Assembly (NCBI RefSeq): GCF_014323725.1
Contig: NZ_JABVED010000005.1
Span: forward strand, 1 to 64,000
Direction: 5' to 3'
DNA length: 64,000 bases
Source of the DNA: Actinokineospora xionganensis
GTDB taxonomy: Bacteria > Actinomycetota > Actinomycetes > Mycobacteriales > Pseudonocardiaceae
Shown: positions 7,773 through 45,804 of the stretch, one piece after another
How the letters are laid out: each line of letters starts with the position of its first letter
How positions within the stretch are numbered: position 1 is the stretch's first letter
Notes under the pieces: model-generated
Seen by the model: only the letters and a program-made list of their open reading frames with translations
The model's database searches: none
What the model was told of the DNA's origin: nothing
Made by a program: the position numbers and the translations under genes

Positions 7773-9686
7773 ATGAGTCAGGTCGAGCGGCACTCCTACG
7801 ACGTCGTCGTCGTCGGAGCGGGCGGCGCGGGGCTCCGCGCGGTGATCGAGGCCCGCCAGCGCGGGCTGCGCGTGGCGGTCGTGTGCAAGTCGTTGTTCGG
7901 TAAGGCCCACACCGTGATGGCCGAGGGCGGCTGCGCGGCGTCGATGGGCAACGCCAACTCCAACGACAACTGGCAGGTCCACTTCCGCGACACGATGCGC
8001 GGCGGCAAGTTCCTCAACAACTGGCGCATGGCCGAGCTGCACGCCCGGGAAGCGCCGGACCGCGTCTGGGAGCTGGAGACCTACGGCGCGCTGTTCGATC
8101 GCACCGAGGACGGCCGGATCAGCCAGCGCAACTTCGGCGGCCACACGTACCCGCGGCTCGCGCACGTCGGCGACCGCACCGGCCTCGAGCTGATCCGCAC
8201 CATGCAGCAGAAGATCGTCTCGCTGCAGCAGGAGGACTTCGCCGAGACCGGTGACTACGAGGCGCGGATCAAGGTCTTCGCCGAAGTGACCATCACTGAG
8301 CTGGTCAAAGATGACGGCCGCATCGCGGGTGCGTTCGGCTACTACCGCGAGACCGGCCGGTTCGTGCTGTTCGAGGCCCCCGCGGTGGTGCTCGCGACCG
8401 GCGGCATCGGCAAGTCGTTCAAGGTCACGTCGAACTCCTGGGAGTACACCGGCGACGGCCACGCGCTGGCCATGCGCGCGGGCGCGACCCTGATCAACAT
8501 GGAGTTCGTCCAGTTCCACCCGACCGGCATGGTCTGGCCGCCCAGCGTCAAGGGCATCCTGGTCACCGAGGGCGTGCGCGGCGACGGCGGCGTGCTGAAG
8601 AACTCCGAGGGCAAGCGCTTCATGTTCGAGTACGTCCCCGAGGTGTTCAAGGGGCAGTACGCGGAGACCGAGGAAGAAGCCGACCGCTGGTACACCGACC
8701 AGGAGAACAACCGGCGCACCCCCGACCTGCTGCCCCGTGACGAGGTCGCCCGCGCGATCAACTCCGAGGTCAAGGCGGGTCGCGGCTCACCGCACGGCGG
8801 CGTCTACCTCGACATCGCGAGCAGGCTGCCCGCCGAGGAGATCAAGAAGCGGCTGCCGTCGATGTACCACCAGTTCAAGGAACTGGCCGACGTCGACATC
8901 ACCGCGGAGCCGATGGAGGTCGGTCCGACCTGTCACTACGTGATGGGCGGCATCGAGGTCGACCCGGACACCGCGGCGGCGAGCGTCCCCGGTCTGTTCG
9001 CCGCGGGTGAGTGCTCCGGTGGTATGCACGGTTCCAACCGCCTCGGCGGCAACTCGCTGTCGGACCTGCTGGTCTTCGGCAGGCGCGCGGGTCTCGGCGC
9101 GGCGTCCTATGTGGAGTCGCTGGAGTCGCGGCCGACCGTGTCGCAGTCCGATGTGGACGCGGCGGCGGAGATGGCGCTCTCGCCGTTCGACCCGCCCGCT
9201 GAGGGGGTCGAGGAGAACCCGTACACGCTGCAGAACGAGCTGCAGCAGTCGATGAACGACCTCGTCGGCATCATCCGCAAGTCCGAGGAGATCGAGCGGG
9301 CGCTGGAGAAGCTCGCCGAGATCCGCTCGCGCATCCGCAACGTCACCGTCGAGGGCCATCGGCAGTTCAACCCGGGCTGGCACCTCGCGATCGACCTGCG
9401 CAACATGCTGATGGTCAGCGAGTGCGTCGCCCGCGCGGCGCTGATCCGCACGGAGAGCCGTGGCGGCCACACCCGCGACGACCACCCGGGGCTCGACGCC
9501 CAGTGGCGCAACAAGCTTCTGGTGTGCAGCGCGAAGGACGACGATCCGGTGGTTCCCGGTGTCGAGGTCACGCCGAAGGAGCAGCTGCCGATGCGGCAGG
9601 ACCTGATCGAGCTCTTCGAGCTCCCTGAGCTGGAGAAGTACTACACCGAGGACGAGCTGGGCAGCCACCCGGGAAGGACGGCCTGA
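7773..9686 (+). CDS. sdhA: Succinate dehydrogenase flavoprotein subunit
   Basis: This is the catalytic subunit, oxidising succinate to fumarate on the cytoplasmic face. ATG 7773 is preceded by GAGAGGATC. The 637-residue protein shows the dinucleotide-binding GAGGAGL (15-21), the covalent-FAD histidine region GKAHTVMAEGG (His46 by position), the substrate loop FVQFHPTGM, TEGVRGDGG, and the C-terminal GECSGGMHGSNRLGGNSL. The C-terminal helical domain includes RTESRGGHTRDDHP. Length and sequence match the Sdh1 class of actinobacteria. It is cotranscribed with the anchor and iron-sulfur subunits. Confidence 0.97.
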   Translation: MSQVERHSYDVVVVGAGGAGLRAVIEARQRGLRVAVVCKSLFGKAHTVMAEGGCAASMGNANSNDNWQVHFRDTMRGGKFLNNWRMAELHAREAPDRVWELETYGALFDRTEDGRISQRNFGGHTYPRLAHVGDRTGLELIRTMQQKIVSLQQEDFAETGDYEARIKVFAEVTITELVKDDGRIAGAFGYYRETGRFVLFEAPAVVLATGGIGKSFKVTSNSWEYTGDGHALAMRAGATLINMEFVQFHPTGMVWPPSVKGILVTEGVRGDGGVLKNSEGKRFMFEYVPEVFKGQYAETEEEADRWYTDQENNRRTPDLLPRDEVARAINSEVKAGRGSPHGGVYLDIASRLPAEEIKKRLPSMYHQFKELADVDITAEPMEVGPTCHYVMGGIEVDPDTAAASVPGLFAAGECSGGMHGSNRLGGNSLSDLLVFGRRAGLGAASYVESLESRPTVSQSDVDAAAEMALSPFDPPAEGVEENPYTLQNELQQSMNDLVGIIRKSEEIERALEKLAEIRSRIRNVTVEGHRQFNPGWHLAIDLRNMLMVSECVARAALIRTESRGGHTRDDHPGLDAQWRNKLLVCSAKDDDPVVPGVEVTPKEQLPMRQDLIELFELPELEKYYTEDELGSHPGRTA

Positions 9687-33816: not shown

Positions 33817-33829
33817 CAATCGGTCTGTG

Positions 33830-33863
33830 AAGCGGGGAGTCGACGTCTGTCGGCTCCCCGCTT
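33830..33863 (+). terminator. Terminator after nrdJ
   Basis: The stem AAGCGGGGAG / CTCCCCGCTT encloses a smaller TCGAC/GTCG pairing and is followed by TTA. It lies 14 bases after the nrdJ stop and also faces the convergent phosphoribosyltransferase gene. Confidence 0.8.
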
Positions 33864-33879
33864 TACGTCGGGTCAGCGG

Positions 33880-34731
33880 TCAGTACCGTATGACTCGTGC
33901 TGCCACGAGCCCGAGAATCGTGGTCGCGCCCGCATGTCGCGCCGCTCTGGCGACTCCCGCCATGGTGCACCCCGTGTGGTAGATGTCGTCGACGATCAAG
34001 ACCGATTTGTCTTCGAGATTTTCCCTGATGCGGAACTCACCTAGCAGGGCGGTGCGCTCGCTGAGCAGTTTCATGTCCTTGGCTGAGGTCCGGTGTTCGT
34101 GGCGGGTGTAGATCTGGGTGAGAGGGATGCCCAGATCATGATGCAAGGCGGCGCCCAGCCGGACGCTCGCACTCGGCGGCCCGCTCCGGGAGTGGCCAGG
34201 CACGGGCAGGATGCGGTCAGCCCTGTTGAGCCAAGGGTGCTGCATGACCACTTCGTAGAGGTCATCGCACAGTGCGCGACCCGCGCGCATCACCTCAGCG
34301 TTGTCGCACGACCGATATCCCTTGATCGTGCGTATCAGTTCGGCGGTTGGCGTGTTCTCAAGCTGCGTGGGATCGGTCGCGGACGGTTTCTTGTAGAAGT
34401 CAAGTGCGACCGCGCCGTCGAGGTCGCTGGACCCGCGAACCCACAGCACAAGGATCTTCCTGAGCAGATCAAGGAATTCTTTCAGTTCTTCATGCGGGGC
34501 GAAGTCGAGCCGGATCCGATGGGTCCACTGCGGCTGATCGTGCGGGTGGATGTTGATGGACTTCGCTCGAGGCCACGCCCCGACGACATGGTTCACGATC
34601 TCCGGTGCGCCACGAAGCATCAAGTACCACATTTGCTTGGATACCGGGACAAGATCCCAATCATCAAGTCTGTTGGCGCGGGGGTGCGCCGTGTAGGGAG
34701 TCGGTGCGGGTGAGATGGTCACGCGGTCCAC
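33880..34731 (-). CDS. ComF-like phosphoribosyltransferase of a DprA-paired locus
   Basis: The 283-residue protein has a C-terminal type I phosphoribosyltransferase domain. Its PRPP-binding motif is SVLIVDDIYHTGCTM (243-257), and the upstream ADRILPVPGHSRSG resembles the ComF/amidophosphoribosyltransferase N-strand and loop. The first 160 residues are an unfamiliar domain with WYLMLRGAPEIVNHVV, WTHRIRLDFAPHEELKEFLD and an acidic patch. No zinc finger as in true ComF is visible. It is divergent from a DprA-like gene across 142 bases. Codons such as ATA, TTG, CGA and TCA are more frequent than in neighbours, pointing to acquisition. The substrate base is unknown. The start is GTG 34731, with a GTG three codons in as an alternative. 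Confidence 0.8.
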   Translation of the reverse strand: MDRVTISPAPTPYTAHPRANRLDDWDLVPVSKQMWYLMLRGAPEIVNHVVGAWPRAKSINIHPHDQPQWTHRIRLDFAPHEELKEFLDLLRKILVLWVRGSSDLDGAVALDFYKKPSATDPTQLENTPTAELIRTIKGYRSCDNAEVMRAGRALCDDLYEVVMQHPWLNRADRILPVPGHSRSGPPSASVRLGAALHHDLGIPLTQIYTRHEHRTSAKDMKLLSERTALLGEFRIRENLEDKSVLIVDDIYHTGCTMAGVARAARHAGATTILGLVAARVIRY

Positions 34732-34873
34732 GCGCTCGAAGTCTCCTGTGCTGGGTCTCGGTCGCTACGTTTGCCAGAGTCGCACAAGCACGTGCGTCAC
34801 GGATGCGGATCAGCGGATCTGGCGGGATTACGATGCGGGCATGTCGCTTGAATCTGTTGCTGAGTAAGGCGCT

Positions 34874-35752
34874 ATGGGAACCAGCGATCACCCGGACGTC
34901 ATCGAACGTGAACTGTGGCTGGCGCTGCTGGCCCCGCGCGCGTGCGGCGGGGCCCGAAGCGCGGTGAAAGTATTGCTGCAGTCGGGCAGGCATCAGCTGA
35001 TGGCATTGATAGATCAGTTGGATGAGTCTGAACGAGTCGAAGCCGAATCCTCCGCGAGGCGCTTGCGTGAGGACGGCGTGCGGGTGCTGCTTTGCGACGA
35101 TCCTTCGTACCCAGGGCGACTCCGATGTTTCCCAGGCGCGCCACCGACGCTGTTCTACCGGGGACCGCTCGAACTCCTCAACGCGGTCGCTGTCGGTGTC
35201 TGCGGGGCACGGGATGCGAGTGCCAGAGGCCTGGGTGCCGCGCACGCTTGTGGAGAGGACGCGGCTCGTTCCGGAGTCACCGTTGTGTCCGGGTATGCCA
35301 GAGGTGTCGACACACAAAGCCATCTAGCCGCTCTGAACGCCGGAGGTGCGACGATCGCGGTTCTCGCCGAAGGCATCGACCATTTCCGCCTCAAACAGGA
35401 TTACCGAACCGTGTCAGGCGATGTCGGGCAACGAATGCTGGTGATCTCTCAGTTCCCGCCGTCCCAGCGGTGGACGGCCGGAGCTGCCATGTCACGCAAC
35501 CATGTCATCGTCGGGCTTGGCCGCGCACTCGTAGTGGTTGAGGCACGTGGTTCAGGAGGCACACTCAAGGCAGGTGAACTCGCGCTTCGAACCAAACGAC
35601 CCACCCTGGTCCTCGGCCTCACTGACGACGTGCCGATCGGCAACCAGCGACTATTGGCTGCCGGAGCTCGTCAGATCATGAACCGTGAGCAACTGCTCGA
35701 CCAGTTGCAGCAGTTGCATGTCGAGCAAACGCCTGAGCTTCCACTCGGTTGA
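34874..35752 (+). CDS. Stand-alone DprA/Smf-like (SLOG) protein
   Basis: The 292-residue protein has a helical N-terminus (1-100) and a Rossmann-like DprA core: VGVCGARDASARGLGAAHA, VTVVSGYARGVDTQSHLAAL, TIAVLAEGID, ISQFPPSQRW, MSRNHVIVGLGRALVVVEA and GGTLKAGELAL. These match the DprA motifs GxR, SGxARGID, FPP and RN-II-GLS in order. The winged-helix end found in many chromosomal DprA proteins is absent. DprA belongs to the SLOG superfamily, whose other members sense nucleotides (for example Thoeris ThsA). Codon use is less GC-rich than in the flanking core genes. The divergent phosphoribosyltransferase suggests a two-part system rather than ordinary competence DprA. Confidence 0.82.
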   Translation: MGTSDHPDVIERELWLALLAPRACGGARSAVKVLLQSGRHQLMALIDQLDESERVEAESSARRLREDGVRVLLCDDPSYPGRLRCFPGAPPTLFYRGPLELLNAVAVGVCGARDASARGLGAAHACGEDAARSGVTVVSGYARGVDTQSHLAALNAGGATIAVLAEGIDHFRLKQDYRTVSGDVGQRMLVISQFPPSQRWTAGAAMSRNHVIVGLGRALVVVEARGSGGTLKAGELALRTKRPTLVLGLTDDVPIGNQRLLAAGARQIMNREQLLDQLQQLHVEQTPELPLG

Positions 35753-35756
35753 GCAA

Positions 35757-44442: not shown

Positions 44443-44669
44443 CGTTTGGTCCTTCCCTGGTCTTGATGCGCGCGCCATTTGCCGTGGCAGTCCCGACACA
44501 TGGGCCGAAGCCGGTCGCGCCGGAAGTCTTCGGGGGCGAGGACGACTTCGAGGCCGCAGAGGGTGGTGAAATCGGCGCCGGGGAGTGGTGGGTAGGGGCG
44601 GTGGGTCGTGTTGGGGATGGCGTGCAGTCCGCCGTCGACGGCCTGCCACTCGAAGGGGCGGTCAGTCAT
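44439..44669 (-). CDS. Small zinc-finger protein
   Basis: The start ATG 44669 (MTDRPFEWQAVDGGLHAI) lies inside the end of the upstream gene; the two overlap by eight bases. The 76-residue product has Cys38 and a CRDCH motif (Cys58, Cys61, His62) separated by 20 residues, a probable zinc-binding site, and a basic C-terminus (HGKWRAHQDQGRTKR). Small Cys/His proteins with an HAIPNTTHRPYPPL-type N-terminus are common next to XRE/DUF397 genes in Pseudonocardiaceae. The role is probably regulatory, but it is untested. Confidence 0.7.
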   Translation of the reverse strand: MTDRPFEWQAVDGGLHAIPNTTHRPYPPLPGADFTTLCGLEVVLAPEDFRRDRLRPMCRDCHGKWRAHQDQGRTKR

Positions 44670-44844
44670 CGTTTCTCGGCAGTTGGCCGATCGCGACACG
44701 AAGCTTGCGATGGACATCCTGTGCGACGTCCGAGCTCTCGGTACGGAATATCCCGGGTGTATCCAGAGTGATGATCAAGCTGTCACGCGGAACCTCGATC
44801 GCCATGATGCGACCGTCGTCATCCGTGACCGTCCAACGGGCCAT
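44662..44844 (-). CDS. 60-residue protein, first gene of the small-gene operon
   Basis: ATG 44844 is preceded by GAGGTGG at good spacing. The product MARWTVTDDDGRIMAIEVPR… reads as a short beta-strand pair followed by a helix (DVAQDVHRKLRVAIGQL). There is no cysteine or membrane segment. It is divergent from the XRE/DUF5753 gene across 117 bases and overlaps the zinc-finger gene. I recognise no family. Confidence 0.6.
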   Translation of the reverse strand: MARWTVTDDDGRIMAIEVPRDSLIITLDTPGIFRTESSDVAQDVHRKLRVAIGQLPRNDD

Positions 44845-44869
44845 GCAAGCCACCTCGCATCGAATGAAT

Positions 44870-44897
44870 GCTACAGAGCGTACGTGCGCTACGTAGC
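44870..44897. promoter_or_regulatory. Candidate operator between divergent accessory genes
   Basis: GCTAC (44870) and GTAGC (44893) flank a run of related CGTACGT/CTACGT half-sites in the 117-base region shared by the small-gene operon and the XRE regulator. TAGGGT seven bases before ATG 44962 could be a -10 element giving a leaderless transcript. Confidence 0.35.
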
Positions 44898-44961
44898 GTC
44901 CATGCAATGCCCTGATCGGGGGACTCCGCGCCGCGCGCAGGCGCCGCGTAGGGTTTGCTAC

Positions 44962-45804
44962 ATGTCCGTAAGCAAGCCCGCAGCAGCACGTGAAATGGGT
45001 GCGGAGCTTCGAAAGCTTCGAGCGGCCGCAGGTATGACCCTTCGCGCCGTCGAGAGTCGAACGGGCATCAGCAACGCCAAGATCAGTCTGTGGGAGACCG
45101 GGCAGCGGTTGGCCGCGCACGACGACCTCTTGCTCGTCCTCGATGCGATCGGCGCCGTTGGGGATGATCGTGAGCGCCTTCTCGGGAAGTGGCGTGCGGC
45201 GACAGAAGGTCCGGGTCAGCTCTTGGGAAGCGCGCCGTTGGTCGGAACGGCGCTCGCTCAGCTCATCGATCAGGAACAAGCCGCACGTCGGATAACAACG
45301 GTGTCCCCGCTACTCATCCCCGGGTTGCTACAGATCAGTAGCTACGCGCGGGAGATCTTCGGTCAGAGTCCGGATGCGCATACGCGTCTTGCTATTCGCA
45401 TGGGGCGTCAGGAGATTCTCACGCGCAAGAGGAACCCGGTTGAACTGCACGCACTGATCGACGATGGGGCGCTGATGCGGCCCATCGCGCCGCCTGAGGC
45501 GATGACCGACCAGATGCGCCACTTGCTCACGATGGCTGAACTTCCGAACGTGACCATTCAGTTGGTGCCATCCACGGCGCCTGGATACTCGCCGCATCTT
45601 GCTGGTGCTTTCATCATGTTCGAGTTCCCGTCTGCTGCGCCGATAGTCCATCTGGAGCACTACCGGGCGAGTGTCACGTTGTGGGATGAAGAAGATGTCA
45701 GCGGCTTCGCCGCTGCCGCGGTGAAGGTGGCGGAACGGGCACTGTCTCCAGTGCGCACGCTCGACGTGATCAAGGAGCTGATCGAAGGGATGGAGGCCGA
45801 ATGA
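44962..45804 (+). CDS. XRE-family regulator with DUF5753
   Basis: The 280-residue protein starts MSVSKPAAAREMGAELRKLR. It has an N-terminal XRE helix-turn-helix (AAGMTLRAVESRTGISNAKISLWETGQ, read in two parts), and then the DUF5753 domain with SPLLIPGLLQISSYAREIFG, RMGRQEIL and LHALIDDGALMRPI. This is the class to which Streptomyces WhiJ belongs, which works with small DUF397 proteins. No good Shine-Dalgarno sequence precedes the ATG, so translation may be leaderless. The stop overlaps the DUF397 start (ATGA). Confidence 0.93.
   Translation: MSVSKPAAAREMGAELRKLRAAAGMTLRAVESRTGISNAKISLWETGQRLAAHDDLLLVLDAIGAVGDDRERLLGKWRAATEGPGQLLGSAPLVGTALAQLIDQEQAARRITTVSPLLIPGLLQISSYAREIFGQSPDAHTRLAIRMGRQEILTRKRNPVELHALIDDGALMRPIAPPEAMTDQMRHLLTMAELPNVTIQLVPSTAPGYSPHLAGAFIMFEFPSAAPIVHLEHYRASVTLWDEEDVSGFAAAAVKVAERALSPVRTLDVIKELIEGMEAE

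Follow-up and report, generated by a model that had tools for sequence, protein, structure and literature searches.

Analysis of a 64 000-nucleotide stretch of the Actinokineospora xionganensis genome (the window) suggests that two divergent genes, encoding a phosphoribosyltransferase (PRT) and a short DprA-like protein, form a toxin–antitoxin or abortive-infection pair of the PsyrTA type with a helicase-less toxin; drawn by analogy with published relatives, this reading is given a probability of roughly 0.58. Pairs of DprA and phosphoribosyltransferase (PRTase) proteins are already known as toxin–antitoxin and anti-phage systems, and the original prediction was right to regard such pairs as possible conflict systems, as PMC9122126 documents the class, including ShosTA and PsyrTA/RqlHI. 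The variant described here is helicase-free, divergent and has its own N-terminal domain, and no such variant confined to one bacterial family was listed in searches of open-licence PMC papers. The features of the locus are:

33880–34731, minus strand: PRT, a phosphoribosyltransferase and proposed toxin/effector (ORF of 283 aa; PF00156, E=5.5e-9)
34282–34731, minus strand: N-terminal region of the PRT, residues 1–150, conserved among 16 relatives, with residues 1–126 lacking a model match
33964–34002, minus strand: PRPP-binding motif VLIVDDIYHTGCT, PRT residues 244–256 (translation and alignment)
34732–34873, no strand: 142-bp stretch separating the divergent start codons (sequence)
34874–35752, plus strand: DprA-like protein of 292 aa with a short C-terminal end, proposed antitoxin (PF02481, E=2.8e-47)
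33817–35756, no strand: complete presence/absence unit (blastn and alignment against genome G014, which has 95 bp instead)
33827–33866, plus strand: inverted repeat after nrdJ, a possible nrdJ/PRT terminator (repeat search)

Both window ORFs are open over their full length. The PRT frame runs from a GTG at 34731, with AGGAG approximately 10 nt 5' of it, to a stop at 33880, and the DprA-like frame from an ATG at 34874 to a stop at 35752, so that the back-to-back arrangement at a distance of 142 bases was as first described. The claim of less GC-rich codon use also held, with GC3 values of 0.75 for the PRT and 0.65 for the DprA-like gene against 0.85–0.96 for the lexA, nrdR, nrdJ, lysE, sigma factor and NmrA-type neighbours. 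A regulator with HTH_31 and DUF5753 domains at 44608–45804 has a GC3 of 0.70, likewise low for the window. No sigma70-consensus match was found in the 142-bp intergenic region, and a terminator scan did not call the inverted repeat at 33827–33866.

The DprA-like protein had been described as lacking the winged-helix end, and this is supported by the alignment and by a tail of 24 aa beyond the PF02481 match, compared with 90 aa in the canonical DprA of the same genome; a winged-helix model was matched in neither protein. The canonical dprA lies on another contig (G000:C11) and adjoins Mg_chelatase, UPF0102 and DUF2469 genes, which we take to be the usual dprA company. The window gene is therefore not the only dprA of this genome, and the objection that it might be falls away. 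Using PADLOC, the window protein scored higher with the PsyrA model (163.8 bits) than with the ShosA model (142.5 bits), as did all nine DprA proteins of the clade, and the reverse order was seen in all four hand-picked controls, namely the genome's own canonical DprA and three DprA proteins from tandem pairs. The order of the two scores discriminates among the proteins tested. The ShosA model itself is unspecific, as it has matches in 58 of 61 genomes at 1e-30 and places the genome's canonical DprA (4.1e-48) above the window protein (5.1e-41). Filing the pair as ShosTA by the ShosA match (E=4e-42) alone was considered and dropped, since the same model matches canonical DprA better. Among solved structures searched with phmmer, the best match of the DprA-like protein was DprA (3uqz, E=1.9e-25), followed by ShosA (9vzo, E=6.4e-15), an order that speaks against the PsyrTA-type reading.

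For the PRT, the Pfam match to PF00156 (E=5.5e-9) was confined to residues 184–272, and PADLOC matched PsyrT (E=5.8e-9) and ShosT (E=8.4e-7) across the C-terminal PRTase core alone, at positions 597–683 of the 689-position PsyrT model and 83–211 of the 237-position ShosT model. This restriction also counts against a PsyrTA-type pair, in favour of which all 16 intact PRTs match PsyrT; ShosT is matched by 15 of the 16. No helicase domain was found in the PRT with Pfam. The original prediction described an unfamiliar N-terminal domain of 160 residues. No Pfam, PADLOC, NCBIfam or PHROGs model covers residues 1–126, and two NCBIfam PRTase models begin at residues 127 and 139. A profile built from 16 relatives matched solved structures in this part at chance level only (ribosomal protein L1, E=0.2). 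Judged from sequence, a domain of approximately 125–150 residues without known relatives appears to occupy the place of the RecQ helicase. The 16 aligned PRTs share an invariant D248 and D249, and their invariant N-terminal columns include L22, R40, P54, W69, L110, D111 and K137. An AlphaFold2 model of the PRT built from two sequences was poor (mean pLDDT 54.5); with this model as the query, Foldseek returned PRTase-fold matches (eight at E≤0.001) and, more weakly, ShosT structures 8zvd (E=0.013, rank 44) and 8zvb (E=0.015, rank 49). No fold is claimed for residues 1–150.

A two-sequence PRT profile (E≤1e-7) matched 28 of 390 Pseudonocardiaceae genomes, and 16 of these (the window and 15 others) hold an intact, full-length PRT. 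Eight partial or degraded copies (G013, G016, G479, G502 at a contig end, G581, G591, G603 and G622) and four matches to the C-terminal part only (G643, G645, G663 and G673, the last three judged without a fetched region) were left out. A clade DprA gene lies beside the PRT in 8 of the 16 (window, L013, L080, L088, L089, L091, L092 and L093), and the two genes are divergent in every one of these pairs, with gaps of approximately 45–220 bp using the chosen starts; L093 has a gap of approximately 860 bp plus another possible ORF between the genes. The remaining eight PRTs (L081–L087 and L090) stand without a DprA partner, so the expected co-occurrence was seen in half of the intact loci and the expected layout in all loci that have both genes. 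In the genomes with a lone PRT, the best DprA match had an E value of 1.3e-27 (G551) or weaker, whereas the nine DprA members of the clade reached 6.4e-67 or better. Both genes are decayed in G016, G622 and G603, with the divergent order still visible, and G583 has an intact DprA-like gene with the PRT reduced to a weak trace (19 residues, E=0.003). The constant divergent layout in intact and degraded pairs, the joint decay of both genes in the three genomes and the sporadic distribution of 16 intact PRTs found among 390 genomes all favour a PsyrTA-type pair.

The N-terminal domain was not reached outside the family by any match listed for two overlapping samples of the phylum, of 396 and 346 genomes, the matches listed outside the own genome falling on the C-terminal half of the PRT. 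A contig scan with two patterns gave 57 pattern matches, which came down to one locus, in A. bangkokensis, and is a weak negative because only two patterns were used. Within the family genomes, DprA matches at E≤1e-30 were listed at 39 places, comprising nine clade members, two remnants (G622 and G016) and 28 others, 19 of which were examined (L110–L112 and L114–L129). A same-strand ComF-like PRT lies downstream of DprA in 16 of these 19 loci, a PRT was not detected at 1e-3 in the other three, and no ORF of the 19 loci matched the clade N-terminal profile at 1e-3. Divergent layout and N-terminal domain therefore coincide within the family and set the clade apart.

Proximity to defence genes had also been anticipated, and the window copy did not bear this out. 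Its ten neighbours, examined with Pfam, belong to nine ordinary families (GTPase, LexA, class II ribonucleotide reductase NrdJ, LysE, sigma factor, NmrA-like, zinc peptidase, DUF2293 and HTH_31/DUF5753 regulator) with one unmatched; neither a known defence family nor an integrase was among them, and no long direct repeat flanks the unit. Elsewhere, within L089 10–8017, the pair adjoins a CBASS-type cluster (E1/ThiF, JAB, SAVED-endonuclease, TIR-SAVED and KAP NTPase), which supports the PsyrTA-type reading. Further candidates are a GmrSD_N gene at 8035–9075 of L091, approximately 4 kb from the intact pair, an RmrA-type gene approximately 5 kb off in L088 (PADLOC, E=1.4e-58) and a weak NYN-nuclease match approximately 3 kb off in L013; L089 10210–11598 and L091 736–2028 had no PADLOC match. 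As the proteins scanned were chosen by hand from four loci, these neighbours provide no measure of enrichment. L091 also carries a second DprA-like ORF of 207 aa (39–662) near the contig start.

No PRT match was found in the phage, plasmid and viral-contig collections, the viral contigs being covered by pattern-based scans, and this, together with the window neighbours scanned, weighs against a PsyrTA-type pair. Carriage by a phage or plasmid was itself considered and rejected, as the PRT had no match there, the ten neighbours scanned include no integrase and no bounding long direct repeat was found. The DprA-like protein matched 37 phage and 235 plasmid records at <60 % identity. Tandem DprA>PRT genes are annotated in three of the records inspected (Gordonia phage Vasanti gp30–gp29, Pseudomonas phage Riah and a Streptomyces plasmid); the fourth is an ordinary Salmonella dprA without a PRT. 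The tandem pairs of the family and of these three records resemble the window pair in having both domain types side by side, but they are on one strand with DprA first, and no PRT of the family pairs examined matched the clade N-terminal domain at 1e-3.

The published relatives are toxic or defensive (PMC4670107, PMC9122126 and PMC12593503), in keeping with a PsyrTA-type function. PMC9122126 reports protection against T7 and lambda by a DprA and PRTase pair from P2-like phages, and it describes shosTA, syrTA and rqlHI as toxin–antitoxin systems in which DprA homologues are the antitoxins. According to PMC4670107, the toxicity of RqlH requires the PRTase and its PRPP-pocket Asp, RqlI binds RqlH and relieves the toxicity, and the PRTase domain alone is insufficient. 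By analogy, the PRT would act as a toxin that spends PRPP to harm the nucleotide pool or DNA, and the short DprA-like protein would act as an antitoxin that binds and/or counters it. Infection or DNA stress might then tip the balance between the two and stop growth, and the N-terminal domain may play the part that the remainder of RqlH plays in that system. The earlier proposal of ribosyl-nucleotide sensing by the SLOG protein found no support; in the relatives that have been studied, the antitoxin is the DprA-like protein and the toxin the PRTase.

The pair shares with PsyrTA/RqlHI the PsyrA model as the best PADLOC match of its DprA-like protein, a ComF-like PRTase with a PRPP motif in the toxin, and the occurrence of partnerless copies, as PMC4670107 describes RqlH without a partner in many bacteria. 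It differs in having an N-terminal domain of no known family instead of a RecQ helicase, and in its divergent genes (8/8), whereas in PsyrTA/RqlHI the toxin gene lies upstream of the antitoxin gene on one strand in one operon. The pair is called PsyrTA-like and not PsyrTA because it lacks the RecQ helicase that helps to define PsyrTA. With a short toxin free of the helicase, the PRTase chemistry could be studied alone; PMC4670107 leaves the PRTase substrate of RqlHI open. The clade would also provide a Gram-positive home for PsyrA-like proteins, RqlH only being recorded in 99.6 % of the Gram-positives counted in PMC4670107.

The genomic address of the PRT raises a different explanation, in which it has been domesticated, mainly as a nucleotide enzyme or a regulator linked to the class II ribonucleotide reductase locus, and the DprA-like gene serves as a dispensable regulator or is left over as a historical antitoxin; we regard this as unlikely. 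The nrdJ region holds all eight lone and two of the eight paired PRTs; six lie directly after nrdJ, tail to tail at 46–98 bp (window and L081–L085), and four at 1.8–2.4 kb (L080, L086, L087 and L090). The same region holds the remnants of G013, G016, G591, G603 and G581 and the DprA gene of G583. However, PRT and nrdJ are convergent and not co-transcribed, and nrdJ was not found in the fetched stretch of six of the eight intact pairs, two of them on short contigs. Over all loci, the fetched stretches in which nrdJ was not found are those of L013, L088, L089, L091–L094 and L097, of which L091, L092 and L097 are short contigs. Moreover, all 16 genomes of the genus have nrdJ, and two of them an intact PRT. 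The address may go back to an old inheritance followed by many losses, or to insertions that occurred repeatedly. In the closest species by NrdJ (G014, 98.8 % identical), 95 bp replace the 1.94-kb unit between the nrdJ stop and the lysE stop, with no PRT or DprA remnant above chance (blastn and alignment), and this clean empty site favours the PsyrTA-type pair. The 4 kb after nrdJ in 11 of 13 further same-genus genomes (G004 and G012 left out) held no trace except a DprA match with E=0.09. The empty site (L146, 3508–3602) carries a distinct hairpin of its own downstream of nrdJ, which indicates that the whole intergenic stretch was exchanged, beyond the genes.

The lone PRTs present the main difficulty for a PsyrTA-type pair, as eight genomes carry an intact PRT where a clade DprA was not found, and a protein that is freely toxic would not be expected to persist without its partner. 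They retain D248–D249 and the PRPP loop in the alignment. Pairwise dN/dS values (Nei–Gojobori) of 0.15–0.24 among L081, L083, L084 and L085 show that this lone group is under purifying selection, which supports the ribonucleotide reductase explanation and counts against a PsyrTA-type pair; L082 against the same four gave 0.13–0.22 with dS above 1. The value of 0.51 for L086/L087 is compatible with relaxed constraint, and values between lone groups were 0.38–0.79. Since intact lone PRTs are kept, the pair is not obligatory and a simple toxin–antitoxin reading is weakened. There is a parallel in PMC4670107, where 55.3 % of strains and 99.6 % of the Gram-positives surveyed have rqlH but no rqlI. 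A by-eye look at the neighbours listed revealed no shared alternative partner of the lone PRTs. L018–L020 encode proteins of approximately 700 aa ending with a PRTase core, that of L018 matching PsyrT over its whole length, and no DprA-like ORF was found in the approximately 20 kb around each.

Residue 191 is R in all eight paired PRTs and M, L or I in all eight lone PRTs. This was found post hoc in a scan of 31 columns invariant in paired PRTs, and the tree provides one paired/lone contrast on supported branches, or two at most. Its backbone branches are weakly supported, and an origin of the lone group in one event is not rejected (p-AU 0.099). With one or two independent contrasts the association is beyond statistical testing, and R191 was rejected as proof of detoxification and kept as a lead only. 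It may correspond to the arginine that PMC5512222 describes as common to ComFC-like PRTases. Tentatively, the clade could be a helicase-free PsyrTA branch, so far of one actinobacterial family, in which the N-terminal domain takes the place of the helicase as the targeting part of the toxin, and loss of the antitoxin with loss of R191 left a resident gene next to nrdJ that the host tolerates. Comparing the paired, lone and degraded copies that occur in nature could help to identify the residues behind the toxicity of the enzyme.

A ShosTA-type pair, in which the PRT upsets purine metabolism and the DprA-like protein aids repair, seems rather improbable. According to the review PMC12593503, citing Pu 2025, ShosTA has PRTase and pyrophosphatase activity, disturbed purine metabolism and DNA effects, and is triggered by T7 Gp0.7. 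ShosTA and the P2-like phage pair share with the window pair a build of two small, helicase-free genes, and the ShosT match in 15 of 16 members, the phmmer match to 9vzo and the weak Foldseek matches to 8zvd and 8zvb are consistent with this assignment. Nevertheless, the Foldseek query was the poor model described above, the ShosA model is unspecific, PsyrA is ahead of ShosA in nine of nine clade proteins, and the DprA proteins of the three tandem pairs are better ShosA matches. ShosTA and the P2-like phage system differ further from the window pair in that the window genes are divergent, the PRT matches the ShosT model in part, and no PRT relative was found on the phages or plasmids searched.

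A competence pair of ComFC and DprA serving DNA uptake is highly improbable. The core domains are common to both, the PRTase core of the PRT being ComF-like, and PMC9005727 reports a ComFC–DprA interaction in two competent bacteria; however, the PRT and the DprA-like protein fall far under the curated NCBIfam cut-offs (comF TIGR00201, 30.8 bits against 233.55; dprA TIGR00732, 138.7 bits against 191.15), the C-terminal end of the DprA-like protein is shorter, a canonical dprA is present elsewhere, and the pair is rare, with the closest species lacking the whole unit. Least probable of all is a decaying passenger without a present function in this strain, for although several relatives have remnants only and a low GC3 may be a sign of foreign or relaxed genes, both ORFs of the window pair are open throughout and dN/dS between the window PRT and the seven other paired PRTs is 0.29–0.42, a rough estimate because dS is 1.3–2.4.

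A separate observation concerns nrdJ itself, which contains an insertion of approximately 1.05–1.3 kb near NrdJ residue 608 in L081, L147 and L159, and near residue 210 in L080. The gene with the insertion stays in frame, encoding 1723 aa in L081 and 1516 aa in G007, and on the strength of these open frames the insertions are probably inteins.
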